A DNA stretch of 54,570 nt, from positions 1-54,570 of the forward strand of contig CAIQOJ010000083.1 in the NCBI GenBank assembly GCA_903873395.1, read 5' to 3'. How positions within the stretch are numbered: position 1 is the stretch's first letter; every line of letters begins with the position of its first letter. The stretch is from an uncultured Acidimicrobiaceae bacterium (lineage in GTDB: Bacteria > Actinomycetota > Acidimicrobiia > Acidimicrobiales > RAAP-2). Below the pieces are notes generated by a model. The model made no database searches and was not told the DNA's origin. It saw nothing but the letters and a program-made list of their open reading frames with translations. Shown piece by piece: positions 27,780 through 36,935 of the stretch. Position numbers and translations under genes: made by a program.

Positions 27780-30323
27780 TCAGGAGACGCGGGGAACTCG
27801 GGACAGGATCTCCGAGACGACCTCATACGCCGACGTTCCGAGCCAACTGGCGACCACATCAGCCGGCACGGCCTCATCCCCTTGGCTCCCGATGAGCACC
27901 ACCTCGTCGCCTCGACGCACCCCGGGGATGTCCGTCACGTCGATCGAGATCTGATCCATCGATACCCGGCCTGCCAGCGGTGCTCGCTGTCCGCGCACAA
28001 GCACATGGTGCCAGGTGGCTGGCGCTCGCCGCAGGCCGTCGGCGTAGCCGACAGGCACCGTCGCCACCCGGCTCGGTCGTGCGGTTCGCCACATGTGGCC
28101 GTACCCGACACCCTCACCCGGGCCAAGGTCATGGACCTGGGCGACTTGCGACCGCCAGGAAAGAGCGGGCAGCAGGTTGTCTGCAGGCACGTCGGGACCA
28201 GGTGCCAGCCCGTAGACGGCGATGCCTGGTCGCACGAGATCAAAGGTGGCATCGCTCCGCATGAGCAGCCCTGCGCTGTTGGCTGCATGCACCGTCCGCG
28301 GCCGATCACCGGTGGATTCGAGGTCGGCCACCACAGCCCGGAATGCCGAGAGTTGGGCATCCGTGGCCGCCACGCCTTGGGCCGATGGGTCGTCGGCACA
28401 GGCAAAGTGGGTGAACAGTCCCGAGACGGCAACACCGTCGATGTTGGCCACCTCCCTGAGGAACCCGGCAGCGTCCTCTGCAGGCACGCCCAGGCGGTGC
28501 ATGCCTGTGTCCACCTTGACGTGGAGTTGAGCGGTGCGATCGAGGGCTTGCGCTGCTGAGCCATAGGCCCGCGCCGTCTCTCGGTCGAACACCGCCAAGG
28601 TGAGATCGAGCGACAGTGCCTCACGAGCCTGCCAGGCCGGGGTATGGCCCAACACCAGGATCGGCGCGCGAATACCGGCGTCACGGAGAACCCGAGCTTC
28701 CGGCACACACGCCACACCGAGCCATGTGGCCCCGTGGCGCAGCGCAGTGTGAGCCACCTGGACGGCTCCGTGTCCATAGGCATCGGCTTTCAGGACGACC
28801 ATGACATCGGCCCCGAGGGCGCGGGTGGTCAGATGGCGGACATTGTGAGCGACCGCACCGAGGTCGATCTCCAACCAGGTGGGCCGCTCTGTCGAGACGA
28901 CGCCGATTGACTGCCAAGCCCGGTCTTGGCGCACCAGCACTTCCGCCGGATCGACGCTGGGATCGAGCAACAATGCCACCACCCGCTCCATGCGTGACGA
29001 GGCACTCCCCTTGATCAAGGCAGTCGCGCCTGGTCCGAGATGGGCTCGAGCGGCGTCAGCGGCATCTTCGGGCGTGAAGGTGATGGACACGCGCTCAGGG
29101 GCCAGACCGGCCGCCATGGCCGCTTCGGCGATCCATGCTGCAGCCCGTCCCTGAGTGATCAGGACGTCGGCCACTTCGCCCGCCCGTTGGCCGATCACGC
29201 GGTGCCAGCGTTCGCTGTCGCCCCCCAGCTCGGCCATCTCGCCATGCACAACGATGGCCGGGGTGCCGCCGATGGCGGCCAGGACCTCGAGGCCGGCCAG
29301 CACCGACCGGGGGGCGGCATTGTAGGAGTCGTCAAGCAGCAGACTCCCGTCCAGACCAGCCAGCGGATGCAGACGCCCGGCTACCGGCCGCGACGAGGCC
29401 AGAGCGGTTGCTGCCGTTTCGGGCTCGACGCCAAAGCGCCTCCCCACCGCCAGGGCGGCCATCACCGACGTTGCGACCTGGGCACCCAGCAGTGGCGTGT
29501 GGATGCGGTCGTGCCACGTGCCTGCCGAGATCTCCAAGGTGGTGCCCGATGGCGTCACCTCGACGGCGTGGACGGTCACCTCCTGCTCAGGTCCCGCACC
29601 AACGGTGACCACCTGTGCGGCTGTACGTTCGGCCAAATCCGCCACCCGTGGATCGTCGGCGGCCAATACCGCAAGTCCGTTCTCCGGCAGGCGCTCAACC
29701 AACACGCCCTTTTCACGGGCCACGCCTTCGACATCACCGAGGGCCACGAGGTGAGCGGCATCGATGGCCGTAACCACGCCGACTTCGGGCGGAGCGAGGT
29801 CGCACATGGCGGCGATCTCACCGAAATGACCGGTGGCCATCTCCACCACGGCGATCTGATGTTCAGGTCGCAGGCCACCGAGGGCCACGGCCAGACCAAA
29901 CCGGCCGCTGTAGTTCCCCGGAGTCCGAAAGACGGTGAACCGGGTGGCCAGCACATCAGCGATCAGTTCTTTGGTTCCGGTCTTACCCACGGTGCCCGTC
30001 ACCGCCACCACGCGAGGACCCCAGGCCCGCACTACCCAAGCGCCATAGCGCTCCATAGCCGCCACCGTGTCCTCAACCACCAACGCGCACCGATCGGAAG
30101 GCACCGAGTGTGGGACGGACACCAAGGCTGCCCGAGCCCCTGCAGCAAAGGCCTGAGCAACGTGATCGTGGCCATCACCGCGGGCCGTCCGCACGGCGAC
30201 GAAGAGGTCGCCGGGCTCGATCAATCGGGAGTCGAAGCAGAATCGCGGCCACCACTCCCCTTCCGATGCGCCGCGAACCTCGAGCTGCGGGGAGGATGCC
30301 TGGAGATCGGACAGGTGGATCAT
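27780..30323 (-). CDS. MurF-alanine racemase fusion
   Basis: An 847-residue bifunctional protein, with the start at ATG 30323 overlapping the upstream TGA (ATGA). Residues 1 to about 455 are a Mur ligase of MurF type (UDP-MurNAc-tripeptide:D-Ala-D-Ala ligase): RFCFDSRLIEPGDLFVA, P-loop TGTVGKTGTKE (GKT at 113-115), DDSYNAAPRS and ALIKGSASSRME. Residues about 480-847 are a PLP alanine racemase: EIDLGAVAHN, the PLP-lysine motif VLKADAYGHG (Lys512), VDTGMHRLG, the VPVGYADGLRR region and GRVSMDQISIDV. The same domain order is known in Bacteroidetes. With the separate MurF and Ddl genes upstream it forms one coupled D-alanine pathway operon. The P-loop has Gly where MurF normally has Thr, so the ligase half may be altered. 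Confidence 0.92.
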   Translation of the reverse strand: MIHLSDLQASSPQLEVRGASEGEWWPRFCFDSRLIEPGDLFVAVRTARGDGHDHVAQAFAAGARAALVSVPHSVPSDRCALVVEDTVAAMERYGAWVVRAWGPRVVAVTGTVGKTGTKELIADVLATRFTVFRTPGNYSGRFGLAVALGGLRPEHQIAVVEMATGHFGEIAAMCDLAPPEVGVVTAIDAAHLVALGDVEGVAREKGVLVERLPENGLAVLAADDPRVADLAERTAAQVVTVGAGPEQEVTVHAVEVTPSGTTLEISAGTWHDRIHTPLLGAQVATSVMAALAVGRRFGVEPETAATALASSRPVAGRLHPLAGLDGSLLLDDSYNAAPRSVLAGLEVLAAIGGTPAIVVHGEMAELGGDSERWHRVIGQRAGEVADVLITQGRAAAWIAEAAMAAGLAPERVSITFTPEDAADAARAHLGPGATALIKGSASSRMERVVALLLDPSVDPAEVLVRQDRAWQSIGVVSTERPTWLEIDLGAVAHNVRHLTTRALGADVMVVLKADAYGHGAVQVAHTALRHGATWLGVACVPEARVLRDAGIRAPILVLGHTPAWQAREALSLDLTLAVFDRETARAYGSAAQALDRTAQLHVKVDTGMHRLGVPAEDAAGFLREVANIDGVAVSGLFTHFACADDPSAQGVAATDAQLSAFRAVVADLESTGDRPRTVHAANSAGLLMRSDATFDLVRPGIAVYGLAPGPDVPADNLLPALSWRSQVAQVHDLGPGEGVGYGHMWRTARPSRVATVPVGYADGLRRAPATWHHVLVRGQRAPLAGRVSMDQISIDVTDIPGVRRGDEVVLIGSQGDEAVPADVVASWLGTSAYEVVSEILSRVPRVS

Positions 30324-32761
30324 CGGCGGGCAGACCGCTCGACGGCGGCCTCGACGATCCGGTCGAGAGCGGCCCATGGGGGCAACGGATCGGCATCAGC
30401 AAGCCACTGGGAGTAGAAGACCGTGGCCTCGGTCAGACCGCACAAGGTGTTGATCTCCAGCAGGTGGACGATGTCATCCACCTGGTCCCAGAACAGGTCG
30501 AGCCGGGCATAGCCCTCGATGGCAAAGCCCTGAGCAATTGCCTCCACCCGGGCACGCACCGACTCGGCTCGAGCGGCACCGATGAAGAGATCGAGCGCCA
30601 GATTGGTACCCACGCCCTGCTGGAACTTTTGCTGCAGGGTGAGTTCATCGGCTGCCACGGCCACACTGGGGACGGCTGCGACCAGCCCCCGCCCAGGTCG
30701 GTCGAGCACCGCAGCGGTGAGTTCGACGTAGCGCTTGGCCTCGAACCACGGGCGCAGCGTCTCAAGGTTCAGGTCGCCCCGAGGAAGCGCCACTGGCTCG
30801 TCCTCGACAAAGGCCCGCTCCAGAAGCCATCTCGTTGGTGGCGGAACCGGCATGGCGATGGCCGCAGCACGATCCCCCAGGTCGGTCCGCACCTCGTCAG
30901 AGGCGAACTCGGGATCCTCGCGCACGACGGCGCTGAAGAAGCGAGCCATCGTGGCCGGTTCTTTGAGGATCTTGACCCCCGTGGAACAGCCGTCAGTCGC
31001 TGGCTTGCACACCAATCGAGACGCACCGAGTTCGCCGCACAGTGCCGCAAAGATCCGTTCGGCGCCTGCAGTGTCCTCTGCCTCGCCAGCCCATCCCCCG
31101 AGCTCGAAGAGGCTGACCACTCGCTGGGTAGGCGCACCGACACCATCGATGCCGAGGGCAACGGCTACTTCAGCCGTCACCGCTTTGTCGCTGGCCACCT
31201 GCGATGTACGAGGTCCCGAGCCGTTGTAGGGGACGCCAAGGTGATCCAGCGCAAGTTGGAGCCGGCCGTCTTCGCCGGGACCGCCGTGCAGGGCGAGGAA
31301 CACCATGTCGGCTTGGGCCACCGATTCTGCCAGTGCCTGGGGATGCCCGGCGGCCAGCGTGGTCGGCTGGACTTTCTCGCTCAGGCCGAATTCGACTCGC
31401 ACCTGTGCTCCCACCCGCTCCACGGCTGCCCGGCGCTGTGGGTCGTCCACCAGTGCCTGGATCTCTTCGACGTCGTGGTGGAGGACGTAGAAGAGCCCGA
31501 TCTCGGTATACCTGCTGCGCAGATCCATCAGGGTGAAGCGCACGTCGTACCCCGAAGCCAGCAGAGAAAGGCCGACGAAGCATCCGCTCTGACGGCTGAC
31601 CTGGCGCTCACTGGTCGTGCCACCCAGGATCACGTGAATGCGTCGACCGGAAGACGGGCCTTGAGCATCTGTCGCCCCCACTACGCCGTCGCTACCTGTG
31701 GCCGCCGCCAGCAACCCGAAGATCAGTCCCCGGTGATCGAGACCGATCATCGCTGCCTGTTGGAACACGAAGCTGGAGAACCCCATGCCACCGATACCGT
31801 TGATGTCGGTCACCACGACGACGCCCTCCGGCGTGAGGAAGCCGTCGATCCGAGCCATGTGGCGCAGACCTAACGCGCCATAGGCCTCCGTGGCGCGGCG
31901 GCGAATCTCATGGAGCGTTGCGTCGTCGATCCTCATGGGCGTGTGATGGAGCACACCCGAACCGTGAAGGTACTTCTCTTCGGTTCCATACACCAGGCGG
32001 CCGTGAGGCTTGTCGACTTCTGTCGGCGCCAAAGCGCAGGGCAAACCACCGGGACCGTCGAGTACCACCACCGAAAACTCGATCCCGGGTACGAACTCCT
32101 CCACCAGCGCCGCCGTCGCACCGCCAGCCATGGCCGAATCGATGGCTGCAGCGATCGCTGCTGGCTCCAGCGGCACGACGGACACCCCGAACGAGGAGCC
32201 CCCGGCCACGGGCTTCACTGCCACCTTGTCGCCCGGTGCCACCGGGCCCAAGCGACCGTCGAGGGCCAGTGCCGCCACCACTGCTGCGGTCGGATCGCCC
32301 TCCCAGGCACTCCGCTCGATACGCAGGTAGCCGGGAACGGCGAAGCCCGACCGGGCCAGCGTGTCGTAACACACCTCTTTGTCGAGCGTGCGGGCCAGGG
32401 CGTCAGGGGTGGAAAAGACATAAGGGACGCCCCATGCCTCGAAGCGCTGCTGCAGCACGCCGTCCTCACCGAATGTTCCGTGCACGATGGGCACCGCCAC
32501 GTCGTGAGCACGAGCCAGATCGGCCACCTCGTCCCACGTCAGGGCACCGTCGTCATCGCGTAGCTGCGACTCGAAGTCGGCGCACGTGTTGGCGTAGTAG
32601 TACAGCGGTGGGAGCAGGTAGGGCTGCAGGTCGCGATCGATGAAGATGACCGAGACTTCGCTTGCCGGGTCGGCCTGGAGATAGGTCACCCATGGCTTGA
32701 TCGAGCCGGCGCTGACATCACGCTCCTCGCTCGGACCGCCGAAGAACAGCAGTACCTTCAT
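30320..32761 (-). CDS. Tandem D-alanine-D-alanine ligase (two Ddl modules in one protein)
   Basis: An 813-residue protein made of two ATP-grasp Ddl units joined by a short linker (about 352-374). First unit: FFGGPSEERDVS, HGTFGEDG (94-101), KPVAGGSSFGVS (183-194), EEKYLHGSG (omega-loop) and metal region HMARIDGF...VVTDING (Asp319-Asn321, where Ddl has Glu-x-Asn). Second unit: LGGTTSERQVSRQSG, HGGPGEDG (492-499), CKPATDGCSTGV, and YARLDLF...LLEINTLCG (Glu769-Asn771). So the first half carries Asp in place of the usual Glu, and the second keeps the standard E-I-N-T. A normal Ddl is about 350 residues. It overlaps MurF upstream and MurF-Alr downstream by four bases each. Confidence 0.9.
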   Translation of the reverse strand: MKVLLFFGGPSEERDVSAGSIKPWVTYLQADPASEVSVIFIDRDLQPYLLPPLYYYANTCADFESQLRDDDGALTWDEVADLARAHDVAVPIVHGTFGEDGVLQQRFEAWGVPYVFSTPDALARTLDKEVCYDTLARSGFAVPGYLRIERSAWEGDPTAAVVAALALDGRLGPVAPGDKVAVKPVAGGSSFGVSVVPLEPAAIAAAIDSAMAGGATAALVEEFVPGIEFSVVVLDGPGGLPCALAPTEVDKPHGRLVYGTEEKYLHGSGVLHHTPMRIDDATLHEIRRRATEAYGALGLRHMARIDGFLTPEGVVVVTDINGIGGMGFSSFVFQQAAMIGLDHRGLIFGLLAAATGSDGVVGATDAQGPSSGRRIHVILGGTTSERQVSRQSGCFVGLSLLASGYDVRFTLMDLRSRYTEIGLFYVLHHDVEEIQALVDDPQRRAAVERVGAQVRVEFGLSEKVQPTTLAAGHPQALAESVAQADMVFLALHGGPGEDGRLQLALDHLGVPYNGSGPRTSQVASDKAVTAEVAVALGIDGVGAPTQRVVSLFELGGWAGEAEDTAGAERIFAALCGELGASRLVCKPATDGCSTGVKILKEPATMARFFSAVVREDPEFASDEVRTDLGDRAAAIAMPVPPPTRWLLERAFVEDEPVALPRGDLNLETLRPWFEAKRYVELTAAVLDRPGRGLVAAVPSVAVAADELTLQQKFQQGVGTNLALDLFIGAARAESVRARVEAIAQGFAIEGYARLDLFWDQVDDIVHLLEINTLCGLTEATVFYSQWLADADPLPPWAALDRIVEAAVERSARR

Positions 32762-34080
32762 CCCTGTGCTCCCTGGTCGTGCTCGGTGCCTGTCAAGCGT
32801 GAGACGAGATGCTCCAGACCCACGGATCGACTGGCCTTGACGAGCACGCCCGTCCCCCGGCCTGATTCGGCCAGCAGTTCGATCACCTGGTCCTCGCTCA
32901 CTGGTTCGACACCGTAGGCGGCGGTCCTGACTGCGACCACCTCGATCCCGAGCGAGGCCGCCAAGTCGGCCATGGATCGATGCGCCTCGTCACTCCCCTC
33001 GCCCAGTTCGGCCATCTCACCCAAGACAGCCACGCGGCGGTCGACGTCCATCGAAGCCAGAGCCGCAAGGGCGGCCTGCATGGATGTCGGGTTGGCGTTG
33101 TACGCATCGTCGATGACCACGAGCCCGGATGCGGCCTGGTGAACCTGAGACCGGCCGGCCGAACCCACGGCGCCAGCGAGGCCGTCAGCCGCCGCCTCCA
33201 ATGGGACGCCAGCACACACGGCGACAGCCAGCGCAGCTGCAGCATTGGGTAGTTGGTGGTCACCCCGGACTGACAGACGAGCAGAAACGGTCCCCCAGGG
33301 CGTATCGAAGCGAACCGATGGCCGGAGCTCCTCGTCACGGCCCAGCAACGTCGCCCGGACATCGCCGGTAGCCGTGCCGAAGGTAAGCACGCTGGCCTCT
33401 GTTCGAGACCGCACGGCATCACCACAGTCCACATCGTTCAAGATGGCGTAGCCCTCCGCGGGCAGGTCAACGATGAGCGAACCCTTCTCGGCGAGCACAC
33501 CCGTCTGGCCGCCCAGATGCTCGAGGTGTGCCTGTCCAATCGAGGTGATCACACCGATAGAAGGACACACGAGGTCGGCCAGGAGGGCGATGTCTCCAGG
33601 GTGTCGGGCACCCATCTCCACCACCACCGCTTCGGCGTCGGCCGGGGTCGCCAAGATGGTCAGCGGGACGCCGAGTTCATTATTGAACGATGCCCGAGTG
33701 GCGTGGGTGCGGAGTCTCGAACCCAGTGCTGCCGCCGCTAGATCCTTGACCGTCGTTTTTCCAACAGACCCGGTGATGGCCACCACGTGCTCTGGCAGTC
33801 TGTCCCGCACTCCTCCAGCCAGAGTCAGAAAGGCGAGAGACGTGTCCTCCACCATGATGGCCGTGCCCCCAACGGGAGCCTTCGAACTCAGGTAGGCCGT
33901 CGCTCCACGTTCCAACGCTTGTCCCACGAAGTTGTGTCCGTCTCGTTCGGCGACGACAGGGACGAACAGTTGACCTGGAGCGATGCTGCGCGAATCCACC
34001 GAGGCACCATCGACCTCGCTGTCTGGACCTACCAGGTCACCATCGACAAGTCGGGATACCTCGGCCGCGGTCACACGCAT
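32758..34080 (-). CDS. murF: UDP-N-acetylmuramoyl-tripeptide:D-alanyl-D-alanine ligase (MurF)
   Basis: A 440-residue cytoplasmic Mur ligase that adds D-Ala-D-Ala to the peptidoglycan precursor. Start at ATG 34080, where the family N-terminus begins (MRVTAAEVSRLVDGDL); the frame extends 261 bp further upstream without homology-like sequence. Motifs: VDSRSIAPGQLFVPV, P-loop AITGSVGKTT (104-110), the central EMGARHPGDI, DDAYNANPTSM and GEMAELGEGS. All are standard for an active MurF. It is first in the operon and its TGA overlaps the ddl-ddl ATG (ATGA). A second MurF domain in the same operon is unusual. Confidence 0.93.
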   Translation of the reverse strand: MRVTAAEVSRLVDGDLVGPDSEVDGASVDSRSIAPGQLFVPVVAERDGHNFVGQALERGATAYLSSKAPVGGTAIMVEDTSLAFLTLAGGVRDRLPEHVVAITGSVGKTTVKDLAAAALGSRLRTHATRASFNNELGVPLTILATPADAEAVVVEMGARHPGDIALLADLVCPSIGVITSIGQAHLEHLGGQTGVLAEKGSLIVDLPAEGYAILNDVDCGDAVRSRTEASVLTFGTATGDVRATLLGRDEELRPSVRFDTPWGTVSARLSVRGDHQLPNAAAALAVAVCAGVPLEAAADGLAGAVGSAGRSQVHQAASGLVVIDDAYNANPTSMQAALAALASMDVDRRVAVLGEMAELGEGSDEAHRSMADLAASLGIEVVAVRTAAYGVEPVSEDQVIELLAESGRGTGVLVKASRSVGLEHLVSRLTGTEHDQGAQG

Positions 34081-34243
34081 CGGGCAACCTCGCCGCAGCG
34101 GCGTTCGAGAGCGTGGGTCATCACGGAATGAAGGAGAGGATGGTCGTAGTGCTCCGGAATTGAAGGGCGCCGGCCGGGCCTTCAGACTACAGGGGCACCT
34201 GGAGGGGATGGGGGTGTTGCGGACACCACCACGTCGAGGCCGA

Positions 34244-35080
34244 TCAGTCGGACGGCGTCCACTCCGTGTCGAGTTCGAAGAACTGCTCGATGAGTGCTTC
34301 GATGCCGATCCCAAGGATCGTCCACTCCTGATCTCCCCCATCGGGTCCGGTGGCCCGGACGATGCCGTGAAGGCTTCGGGGGTCGGCTCGGTCCCGAAGG
34401 GCGCATCCCTTGATCAGGGCGCTCACGGAGGCAGTGAAGTGTTGGAGCGCAAGCCCAGGCCGAAGATGCAGTCCGAACGCTTCTTGGAGTTGTTCGGCGA
34501 AGACCGCATTGCGTGCCTCCACGACCGAGTAGCTCCGCTGCAGGGCCTCGTGAATCTCGTCGCTCGCACCGCCACTCGGCGCCGATGATGACAGTGCCCA
34601 CACACCGACCACGGCGGCCCACGAACCCGAACCGGAGACGGCATCGAGATTGGCTTCCGCGGTCAGCCGTGCGAGCTCGCTCAGGGCTCGGCGCCTACCT
34701 TCCAGCGTGGACCGATCGGCTTCGGCGAGGACCTGCTGGGTGACGTCAGCGACCTCGACGGCTAGCAAGGTCATGTCGTCAGAGGCCACCGAGGCCAGTA
34801 CTGCGCTTTGGAACTCCGCCTGGTTCTGCCACACCCTGCCGATGACCGACGCGTTAGTGATCCGAATACCCGATGTGGAGGCTACGCGTTCGAACACCCG
34901 CTTGAACGTGAGGTGTTCGGCACCCGTCCCCAGACCCTCTTCGAGAAGGATGGTTGTTCCCGTTTCGATCAGCAGCGAGCGCAACTCGGCGCGAGTGCGA
35001 CGGGTCGGTTGGGTTGCCGTTAGAGGGTTCGGCGCCAGCGGAGGCGCAGTCGTAGGTGCGCCCTCGTCGGGGGCGCTCAT
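34244..35080 (-). CDS. TetR-family transcriptional regulator
   Basis: A 278-residue protein with a TetR-type helix-turn-helix region near residues 30-90: ELRSLLIETGTTILLEEGLG followed by RVASTSGIRITNASVIGRVW, the recognition part. The first about 25 residues are Pro/Thr/Ala-rich and likely disordered. The HTH is longer and less regular than usual. The ligand-binding C-terminal domain is not recognisable beyond helices. It sits between the murF operon and the riboswitch-controlled toroid gene, in the same direction as both; its target could be either or elsewhere. Confidence 0.75.
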   Translation of the reverse strand: MSAPDEGAPTTAPPLAPNPLTATQPTRRTRAELRSLLIETGTTILLEEGLGTGAEHLTFKRVFERVASTSGIRITNASVIGRVWQNQAEFQSAVLASVASDDMTLLAVEVADVTQQVLAEADRSTLEGRRRALSELARLTAEANLDAVSGSGSWAAVVGVWALSSSAPSGGASDEIHEALQRSYSVVEARNAVFAEQLQEAFGLHLRPGLALQHFTASVSALIKGCALRDRADPRSLHGIVRATGPDGGDQEWTILGIGIEALIEQFFELDTEWTPSD

Positions 35081-35250: not shown

Positions 35251-36690
35251 CTAGCCGCGATAGGTAAAGCGATCGGCCGTCGTCACCCCACTTGTTCCCG
35301 CCGGAGTGGTCACGGTGACATCGACCATGCCGCTCCCGGCTGGAGACACCGCCTGAACCTCGGTATCGGACACCGAGGTGACCGAGAGTGCCGGCATAGC
35401 CCCGAAATGCACTGAGGTGGCTGGGTAGAGCGACGACCCCTTGATGGTCACCACCGTGCCGCCGGCCAACGGTCCTCGCCTGGGCGTCACCTTGGTGATG
35501 CCGACCGGGGCCAGATCGTAGGCGACGGTCACGCCGGCCAGGGCTGGCACGGCTTGATACGTGGCCAACTGATTGGCGCCCACCAGACCGGGGAACGAGA
35601 GCGCTCCGGCACCAGCCCCCGATCCGATCTGGTTGCTGAGGAGCGACGCCACCGGGCCGCCGCCTTTCCGACCGATCGAGCCAGCCGACGGCGATACGTG
35701 TAGGGCCAGCAGTGCCTGGAGCACCAGTGCAGTCGAATCAGGGTCGGTGAATCCCGGAGCATGAGCCGCAGTTGGCTCATAACCCCAGCCGCCGTCTTTG
35801 TCTTGGGCCTTGGCCAAGAAGTGGGCAGCCGACGCAGCCGCACCAGCGCTAAGAGCGTTCTGGGCCGCAAGGCCCTGGATGGCCAATGCGCTCGAGTTGG
35901 TGTCGGGTCCCTGGTAGTTCGCCGGACTTCCGTTGCATGGGTTCGTCGAGCTCACGTAGCTCGTCCATCCGCCATTGGAGCACTGTTGAGCACTGAGCCA
36001 CGATGCCGCCGCTGCGATGCTGGACCCAGTGGTCACCCCGGCCGCTGCCAGCCCAGCCAAGGCCAGACCCTGGCGGAAGGTGCCGTCGTAGGTCGGATCC
36101 TGAGAACCGAAGAGCCCGGTGTCAGAACCCGTTGTCTGTTGAGTGGCCAGCAGACGGGCCACCAGATCGGTTCCTCCGAAGGACCGGGGGTTCGATCCGA
36201 GAGCCTCGGCATCAAGGATGAGCAGCGCCAACTGTCCCGGACCGTCCGAGCCCGACGCAGTCACATAGTCACCCACGTGGCCCTGCAGATAGGCCAAGGC
36301 ACCAAGGGCATCAGTGCGATATCCGCCAGCCGAGGCAAGGGCGAAGACCACATTGGCCGTGGCATCGAAGTCGACCTGACCTGGTGAGGTCGATGATGGC
36401 ACGTAGCCCGCTGGAGTGAGGCGGCCATCGAGCCACGAAGCCCCCGCCTGGGCGGCAGCGACCTGGGGCAATGAAAGCGCTGGGGCAGCTGCCGCATCGG
36501 CCGGTGATGCGGCCAGCACCGGCACGAGCGCAAGTGAACCAAGTGCTGCCACCATGGCGACGACAGCCGCCTTCCACGATGCCACCGACGCACGAGGTGT
36601 CGTTGTCGACGCAGTGGGGCGGGACGGCGTGCGGAACGACCCATCACGGACAACTGACGTGGGGGCTGAAGGGAAGCGGTTCGACATCAT
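35251..36690 (-). CDS. Secreted alpha/alpha-toroid protein with IPT/TIG domain; candidate cobalamin-binding protein
   Basis: A 479-residue exported protein. Signal segment AAVVAMVAALGSLALVPVLA (about 41-60) precedes ADAAAAP, a likely cleavage site. The middle (about 75-390) is made of helical repeats of prenyltransferase/squalene-oxidase type with QQCSNGGWTSY, AKAQDKDGGWGYEP and PDSTALVLQALLALH, the fold also used by the N-terminal domain of eukaryotic intrinsic factor and transcobalamin. The C-terminal about 80 residues, from ITKVTPRRGPLAGGTVVTIKG, are an IPT/TIG immunoglobulin-like domain. There is no LPxTG motif. The 5' leader matches a cobalamin riboswitch, so I infer a role in capturing B12 or a corrinoid outside the cell; a surface terpene-like or polymer-binding role is the main alternative. 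GAAGGAA precedes the double ATG start. Confidence 0.85.
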   Translation of the reverse strand: MMSNRFPSAPTSVVRDGSFRTPSRPTASTTTPRASVASWKAAVVAMVAALGSLALVPVLAASPADAAAAPALSLPQVAAAQAGASWLDGRLTPAGYVPSSTSPGQVDFDATANVVFALASAGGYRTDALGALAYLQGHVGDYVTASGSDGPGQLALLILDAEALGSNPRSFGGTDLVARLLATQQTTGSDTGLFGSQDPTYDGTFRQGLALAGLAAAGVTTGSSIAAAASWLSAQQCSNGGWTSYVSSTNPCNGSPANYQGPDTNSSALAIQGLAAQNALSAGAAASAAHFLAKAQDKDGGWGYEPTAAHAPGFTDPDSTALVLQALLALHVSPSAGSIGRKGGGPVASLLSNQIGSGAGAGALSFPGLVGANQLATYQAVPALAGVTVAYDLAPVGITKVTPRRGPLAGGTVVTIKGSSLYPATSVHFGAMPALSVTSVSDTEVQAVSPAGSGMVDVTVTTPAGTSGVTTADRFTYRG

Positions 36691-36784
36691 GAGGGTTCCT
36701 TCCCGGAAGAGCCTCAGCGCCTAAGGGAACCACGCGTTCCCCGATGCCCCGAGCCCCTCCCGCGTGTCTCGACGGGCATGGACT

Positions 36785-36935
36785 CCACCACTGCGCTCCG
36801 GTATCCCGACTCGCGGTGGCGACGTATCGACCACCGCCCACGGTTGCGGACCAGCGCCGGCTTCTGACCGGCTTCCCCGAAAGGCAGTGCTACTGCAGTA
36901 CTGCGTGATGCTTTCCCGACCGTAGCACCCGCCAT
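36785..36935 (-). ncRNA. Cobalamin riboswitch (5' leader of toroid gene)
   Basis: Read on the minus strand, the leader shows the cobalamin-riboswitch core: GGGGAAGCCGG (36878-36868), a hairpin closing with GCCGG, GGTCCGCAACCG (36852-36841) in place of the usual GGTCCCGCAACTGT, then GCGAGTCGGGATACCGG (36814-36798), matching the AGTCAGGATACCTG element, and a GC-rich hairpin downstream. The order and spacing are as in Rfam family Cobalamin (RF00174). It lies between the toroid gene start (36690) and the divergent gene at 36970, so cobalamin should lower expression of the secreted protein. Ends are approximate. Confidence 0.85.

Follow-up and report, generated by a model that had tools for sequence, protein, structure and literature searches.

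We analysed the window, a 54,570-nucleotide stretch of DNA from an uncultured Acidimicrobiaceae bacterium (contig CAIQOJ010000083.1), which carries on its minus strand a gene for a secreted α/α-toroid protein behind a cobalamin riboswitch. This protein very probably supplies the toroid for an extracellular corrinoid trap made of two proteins, in which it would pair with a β protein resembling the SCO2322 family and serve an energy-coupling factor (ECF) importer. The two riboswitches, the linkage of the genes in relatives, the predicted folds of both proteins and the remote homology between the β protein and DUF4430 were computed here, as were the absence of a cobB match and the presence of B12-binding domains in the genome; we infer the identity of the ligand, the pairing of the two proteins, the hand-over to the importer and the direction of regulation.

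The toroid gene and its leader

In the genome to which the window belongs (2.82 Mb, 142 contigs, 94% complete), the cobalamin riboswitch family RF00174 has two matches at E ≤ 0.001, and both lie directly 5′ of the secreted genes of the proposed trap. The features of the locus in the window are as follows:

35251–36690, minus strand: gene for the secreted α/α-toroid and TIG protein (479 amino acids), the proposed α subunit of the B12 trap (open reading frame, Pfam, NCBIfam and AlphaFold2)
36493–36690, minus strand: N-terminal export signal region (residues 1–66), a hydrophobic segment followed by ASPADAAA, read by eye
35512–36492, minus strand: α/α toroid domain (residues 67–393), in which two Cys residues and motifs of the D-x-N-S-T type are conserved
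35260–35499, minus strand: C-terminal IPT/TIG domain (residues 398–477), a variable accessory module (PF01833, 47.5 bits, cut-off 20.9)
36800–36877, minus strand: cobalamin riboswitch aptamer core (RF00174, 37.6 bits), identical or nearly so in nine other leaders
36701–36799, minus strand: putative expression platform, a conserved leader 3′ of the aptamer; the consensus fold of the 10 leaders predicts a hairpin here that stops right before a Shine-Dalgarno-like AAGGA

The initial annotation of this DNA, made from the sequence alone, had placed a cobalamin riboswitch on the minus strand directly upstream of an exported protein and had suggested a comparison of the leader with RF00174. The comparison bears this out: the match at 36877–36800 (minus strand) is significant (E = 4.9e-06) and above the gathering threshold (37.6 vs 31.5 bits), it is the sole gathering-level Rfam match in the window, and the toroid open reading frame (ORF) starts about 110 nt 3′ of it. 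Among the first 14 of the relatives' loci that were fetched, 12 have a gathering-level RF00174 match 5′ of the toroid gene; the two exceptions are L096, with about 130 bases of upstream sequence, and L098, with sub-threshold matches only. The aptamer core is common to 10 leaders, namely those of the window, of eight relatives and of the β gene in the same genome. Their consensus fold predicts a downstream hairpin (pairs 194–206/242–254), the end of which abuts the Shine-Dalgarno-like region. Two-sided changes were found in 19 of the 44 predicted leader pairs, with a small covariation term (−2.55 kcal/mol). The switching mechanism of this part of the leader is putative, and repression of expression by cobalamin would be expected from the known members of the riboswitch class.

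A secreted protein with an α/α toroid and an IPT/TIG domain had likewise been proposed, and its structure prediction agrees. The AlphaFold2 model is a helical toroid (pLDDT 90.2, pTM 0.91), and a structure comparison of this model matched its fold to that of the toroid of human intrinsic factor, haptocorrin and transcobalamin. The best fold and sequence matches of the toroid were squalene-hopene cyclases and toroid sugar enzymes, and Pfam reports SQHop_cyclase_C at residues 180–314 (34.3 bits, cut-off 26.1). Against the NCBIfam SCO2321 family (NF053823) the protein scored 161.4 bits (E = 3e-47), below the curated cut-off of 300 and with its halves in swapped order. The Pfam scan gave no match of PF01122 or PF14478 in the window protein, and animal B12 carriers were absent from the PDB sequence matches of the toroid, β and DUF4430 profiles. 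These sequence-only routes failed; the link to the animal carriers is drawn from folds and from profile–profile comparison.

Among the matches listed, the closest named relatives of the toroid (63–66% identical) come from Acidimicrobiaceae and Acidimicrobiales metagenome-assembled genomes (MAGs). Of ten relatives scanned, two (L087 and L090) also carry TIG; L088, L089, L091, L092 and L093 have GYWLVAxDGGIFxFGDAxFxGS-type repeats in its place. The neighbours in the window are a maleylpyruvate-isomerase-like gene on the opposite strand and a 278-amino-acid gene without a Pfam family above cut-off, and from their identity and strand the toroid gene appears to be solitary. The initial annotation had remarked that no transporter gene is adjacent, which is true locally; ECF genes are nevertheless found elsewhere in this genome, where they seem to follow the second riboswitch. 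Elsewhere in the window, the gene at 30320–32761 (minus strand) encodes an 813-amino-acid protein with two tandem D-Ala-D-Ala ligase (Ddl) units, in which the N- and C-domain models each match twice; it is followed by a MurF-like gene at 32758–34341, and the fused double Ddl looks unusual.

The proposed β partner and importer across genomes

The second RF00174 match lies on contig C140, 5′ of an ORF that was judged by eye to be secreted and that runs off the contig end. The protein, cut in this way, scored 51.5 bits against the SCO2322 family (NF040672), below the curated cut-off of 85. The predicted fold of its family is the β-grasp of the intrinsic factor and transcobalamin type, with 12–18% identity to the animal carriers over the β domain, and by hhalign the β protein is remotely homologous to DUF4430. 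The Pfam models PF01122 and PF14478 gave no match in this protein or its relatives. Contig C127, which starts within the ACC-type repeat at which C140 breaks off, apparently supplies the rest of this gene and those that follow. C127 carries, in order, a C-terminal membrane-like segment, EcfT (a CbiQ match, 33.6 bits over a cut-off of 25), an ABC ATPase in fused form and a membrane protein that resembles an S component. The latter has no Pfam match and its sequence matched no solved structure; a relative that is 38% identical (L018) passes the ECF_trnsprt model. C140 and C127 would form one operon, as found on a single contig in another genome of the same family (G022), where a riboswitch (29.9 bits, below gathering) is followed by β, EcfT, EcfA and EcfS. 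The toroid gene of G022 stands on another contig behind its own riboswitch (30.1 bits).

A contig scan queried with the single window protein gave no match; an alignment query then gave 492 relatives, the best 80 of which are the named loci used here, many on contigs that are cut short. In the order Acidimicrobiales, 11 of 148 genomes have a toroid match; the match is weak in G081 and in G108, where a contig end cuts it. A SCO2322-like match is found in nine of these 11 genomes and RF00174 matches in ten. Those ten hold 17 RF00174 matches (9 above gathering), of which 15 are directly 5′ of a toroid or SCO2322-like gene. The 16th, in G019, precedes an apparent lipoprotein gene (L022 3655–4164, plus strand) that aligns to the β profile (hhalign, E = 6e-12) and is apparently a second β-like protein under its own cobalamin riboswitch. 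The 17th, in G095, precedes a gene that, from its motif, looks like CbiM. The toroid and SCO2322-like genes stand apart, each with its own riboswitch match, in G000, G022, G053, G095 and G127, and in one cluster in G010, G140, G146 and G019. G140 also has a second SCO2322-like match (L059, C1:1664184–1664333) without a nearby riboswitch match.

In a sample of the phylum, SCO2321-type matches (E ≤ 1e-10) occurred in 59 of 296 genomes and were merged into 64 actinobacterial toroid genes. RF00174 was found upstream on the same strand within 1.5 kb of 37 of these 64 genes and within 10 kb of 48. The expectations from the number of matches and the genome sizes are 0.027 and 0.178, respectively, and chance co-location of riboswitch and toroid was rejected on these figures. 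Fifteen loci, which included 8 of the 16 toroid genes lacking a riboswitch, were also scanned more permissively; this gave weak matches (E 0.012–0.03) in G197, G250 and G300 and no match at L027, L029, L031, L049 or L053. Of the 64 toroid genes, 34 have a SCO2322-like gene on their own strand at a distance of no more than 3.5 kb. Of the 80 named loci, 57 have a SCO2322-like ORF, 46 EcfT, 42 EcfA and 39 EcfS; in L108 the β ORF is on the other strand. No ORF of the 80 loci carries both a toroid and a β match. Toroid homologues also occur outside Actinomycetota, on three Chloroflexi/Anaerolineae contigs (L119, L133 and L152), two of which (L133 and L152) carry a SCO2322-like ORF and one (L152) an ECF-type ATPase.

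DUF4430 was then sought in 27 genomes, comprising 21 toroid genomes without a SCO2322 match and 6 chosen with one. It was present in 14 of the former and in none of the latter, so that the two families never occurred together in these genomes. In each of the 14 genomes DUF4430 is downstream of an RF00174 match with which it shares contig and strand; the toroid gene follows likewise in 11 of them. This complementary occurrence suggests that one function is served by either a SCO2322-like or a DUF4430 protein. In the remaining seven toroid genomes (G153, G165, G168, G179, G215, G229 and G352) neither family was found, and the toroid gene has a cobalamin riboswitch no further than 1.1 kb away; a third type of β protein may exist there.

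Streptomyces-type toroids have their two halves swapped relative to the window toroid, and Streptomyces-type β proteins have theirs swapped relative to the order seen in Acidimicrobiales and in DUF4430. An automatic test called the toroid permuted in 46 loci and the β protein in 36, with six β ORFs unassignable, and found no locus with β permuted and toroid not. Two loci were inspected further. L109 is unpermuted in both partners: its main toroid match is collinear, the automatic flag having come from a repeat match, and its β sequence was read. L151 is permuted in both, its β protein having been called unpermuted by motif pattern and found permuted on reading the sequence. After this inspection both partners are permuted in 37 loci. 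In an EcfA tree of 40 proteins, of which permuted loci supplied 30, a single change is enough to explain the permutation label (support 96/92); L152, L109, L100, L165 and L095 form long branches, and the root and deep joins are unsure. Permutation of both partners on the same branch suggests that toroid and β work as one unit. We hold it about an even chance that a split intrinsic-factor-like B12 trap serves the ECF importer and that both its subunits underwent a single joint permutation, on the branch leading to Streptomyces and neighbouring lineages; this would suggest that the two folds co-evolve as one clamp, with tether points that had to shift in concert. The same tree places L121 (titled Bifidobacterium breve MAG) with Nanopelagicales and L108 (titled Acidobacteria) with an Acidimicrobiia MAG; these may be mislabelled bins or transfers.

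Proposed mechanism and alternatives

The key steps of the proposed mechanism are as follows. At low intracellular cobalamin, the riboswitch would permit synthesis and export of the toroid protein, and the second riboswitch, at the other locus, would permit production of the SCO2322-like β half, with its C-terminal membrane anchor, together with EcfT, EcfA and EcfS. The toroid and the anchored β domain would then clamp the corrinoid between them, like the two domains of intrinsic factor or transcobalamin, and pass it on to EcfS for import driven by ATP. The TIG domain would act as an accessory surface or adhesion module.

A need for such import would arise in a B12 user that is unable to make the corrin ring. 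B12-binding domains (PF02310) were found in 10 of 10 genomes, with three in the genome of the window. No match of cobB, taken as a single marker of corrin synthesis, was found in 8 of the 10, including that of the window at its 94% completeness; G095 is the only one with cobB among the nine genomes of the order tested. The evidence that the window's own genome cannot make the corrin ring is moderate.

As a complete B12 binder on its own, with TIG in place of the β domain, the toroid–TIG protein would fit a solitary gene under its own riboswitch in which TIG follows the toroid. This was the proposal of the initial annotation, and it does not hold up well: TIG is sporadic among the relatives scanned, a separate gene from a family with an intrinsic-factor-like β fold lies under the second riboswitch, and more than half of the 64 toroid genes have a SCO2322-like gene close by. 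We consider a stand-alone binder improbable, and the initial interpretation as a whole is partly supported. An enzyme that happens to be cobalamin-regulated, such as a terpene cyclase or a polysaccharide or sugar enzyme, would account for the best fold and sequence matches and for the SQHop_cyclase_C match. However, the protein is secreted and has a single toroid, and the whole-protein squalene-hopene cyclase model TIGR01507 scored 15.6 against a cut-off of 431.1. DXDD, the catalytic acid motif of squalene-hopene cyclase, is aligned with DTNS in a weak local match that is itself insignificant. The partner genes, moreover, encode an ECF importer and a β family whose predicted fold is of the transcobalamin type, and an enzymatic role is quite unlikely.

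Cobalt import has in its favour that cobalamin riboswitches also control cobalt transporters and that EcfT matches CbiQ, a cobalt transport protein. The β fold is that of B12 carriers, and without a cobB match in the genome cobalt for corrin synthesis is probably unneeded; a cobalt importer therefore appears very unlikely indeed. A trap for another corrinoid or precursor (cobinamide or other cobamides) in place of cobalamin is a refinement that overlaps the proposed trap, and we regard it as possible, if somewhat doubtful. In the available text of the sources, ECF-CbrT also imports cobinamide (PMC5997447) and several corrinoids trigger cobalamin riboswitches (PMC9600662). The resemblance of the β protein is to cobalamin carriers in general and does not discriminate between these ligands.

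Comparison with known systems

The toroid and β folds of the proposed trap match those of human intrinsic factor, haptocorrin and transcobalamin. The animal carriers, however, are single polypeptides taken up through receptors, whereas here there are two polypeptides and an ECF importer. ECF importers are not known to use soluble binding proteins. The NCBIfam families SCO2321 and SCO2322 are homologous to the window toroid and the C140 β protein, both of which score below the curated cut-offs, and their Streptomyces versions are circularly permuted. No paper naming SCO2321, SCO2322, SCO2323, SCO2324 or SCO2325 was found among the open-licence papers searched. The proposed trap supplies SCO2321 and SCO2322, two secreted families of uncharacterised role, with a function that can be put to the test; both are present in many Streptomyces records and in uncultured actinobacteria. 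If real, the trap would explain how such bacteria capture a cofactor that is scarce outside the cell. A split form under riboswitch control would also join the known bacterial relatives of the human B12 carriers, and the transfer of substrate from a surface trap to an ECF S component would become experimentally approachable in a laboratory Streptomyces.

ECF-CbrT (PMC5997447), like the system predicted here, pairs its ECF module with an S component that takes B12; it is of group II, with a shared module, and the accessible part of that paper mentions no extracellular capture protein. In acI freshwater actinobacteria, ECF modules behind cobalamin or AdoCbl riboswitches were proposed as cobalamin transporters in B12 auxotrophs (PMC5301498). 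Those modules share riboswitch control of an ECF importer, but a toroid or β protein is not mentioned in the sections of that paper available to us. Four further papers (PMC3766115, PMC6593275, PMC4350170 and PMC2667541), to the extent of their available text, describe no split trap.

The closest likeness is to the SLBB/DUF4430 systems of Burroughs et al. 2007 (PMC1796856). In the portions of that paper available, transcobalamin-like domains of bacteria, in many cases fused to a toroid, occur in CbiO/CbiQ operons and were proposed to scavenge B12 or its precursors. The clade was assigned to low-GC Gram-positives and planctomycetes, and more rarely to euryarchaea, with hosts usually lacking key B12 synthesis enzymes; the word riboswitch is never used in the main text. 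Both systems combine a secreted β-grasp domain and a toroid with a CbiO-like ATPase and a CbiQ-like permease, in our case in a host without a cobB match. As far as the text at hand goes, fusion was common and stand-alone domains were also mentioned, whereas in this genome toroid and β are encoded separately, at two loci that each have a cobalamin riboswitch. A further difference is that the SCO2322-like β family escapes the Pfam DUF4430 model and that the partners are permuted in the branch containing Streptomyces. PMC1796856 is the one direct precedent found in the open-licence literature, and a system of this kind was predicted there in 2007 for DUF4430-type proteins; new here are the separate genes and riboswitches, a β family beyond the DUF4430 model, the accessory TIG domain and the joint permutation.
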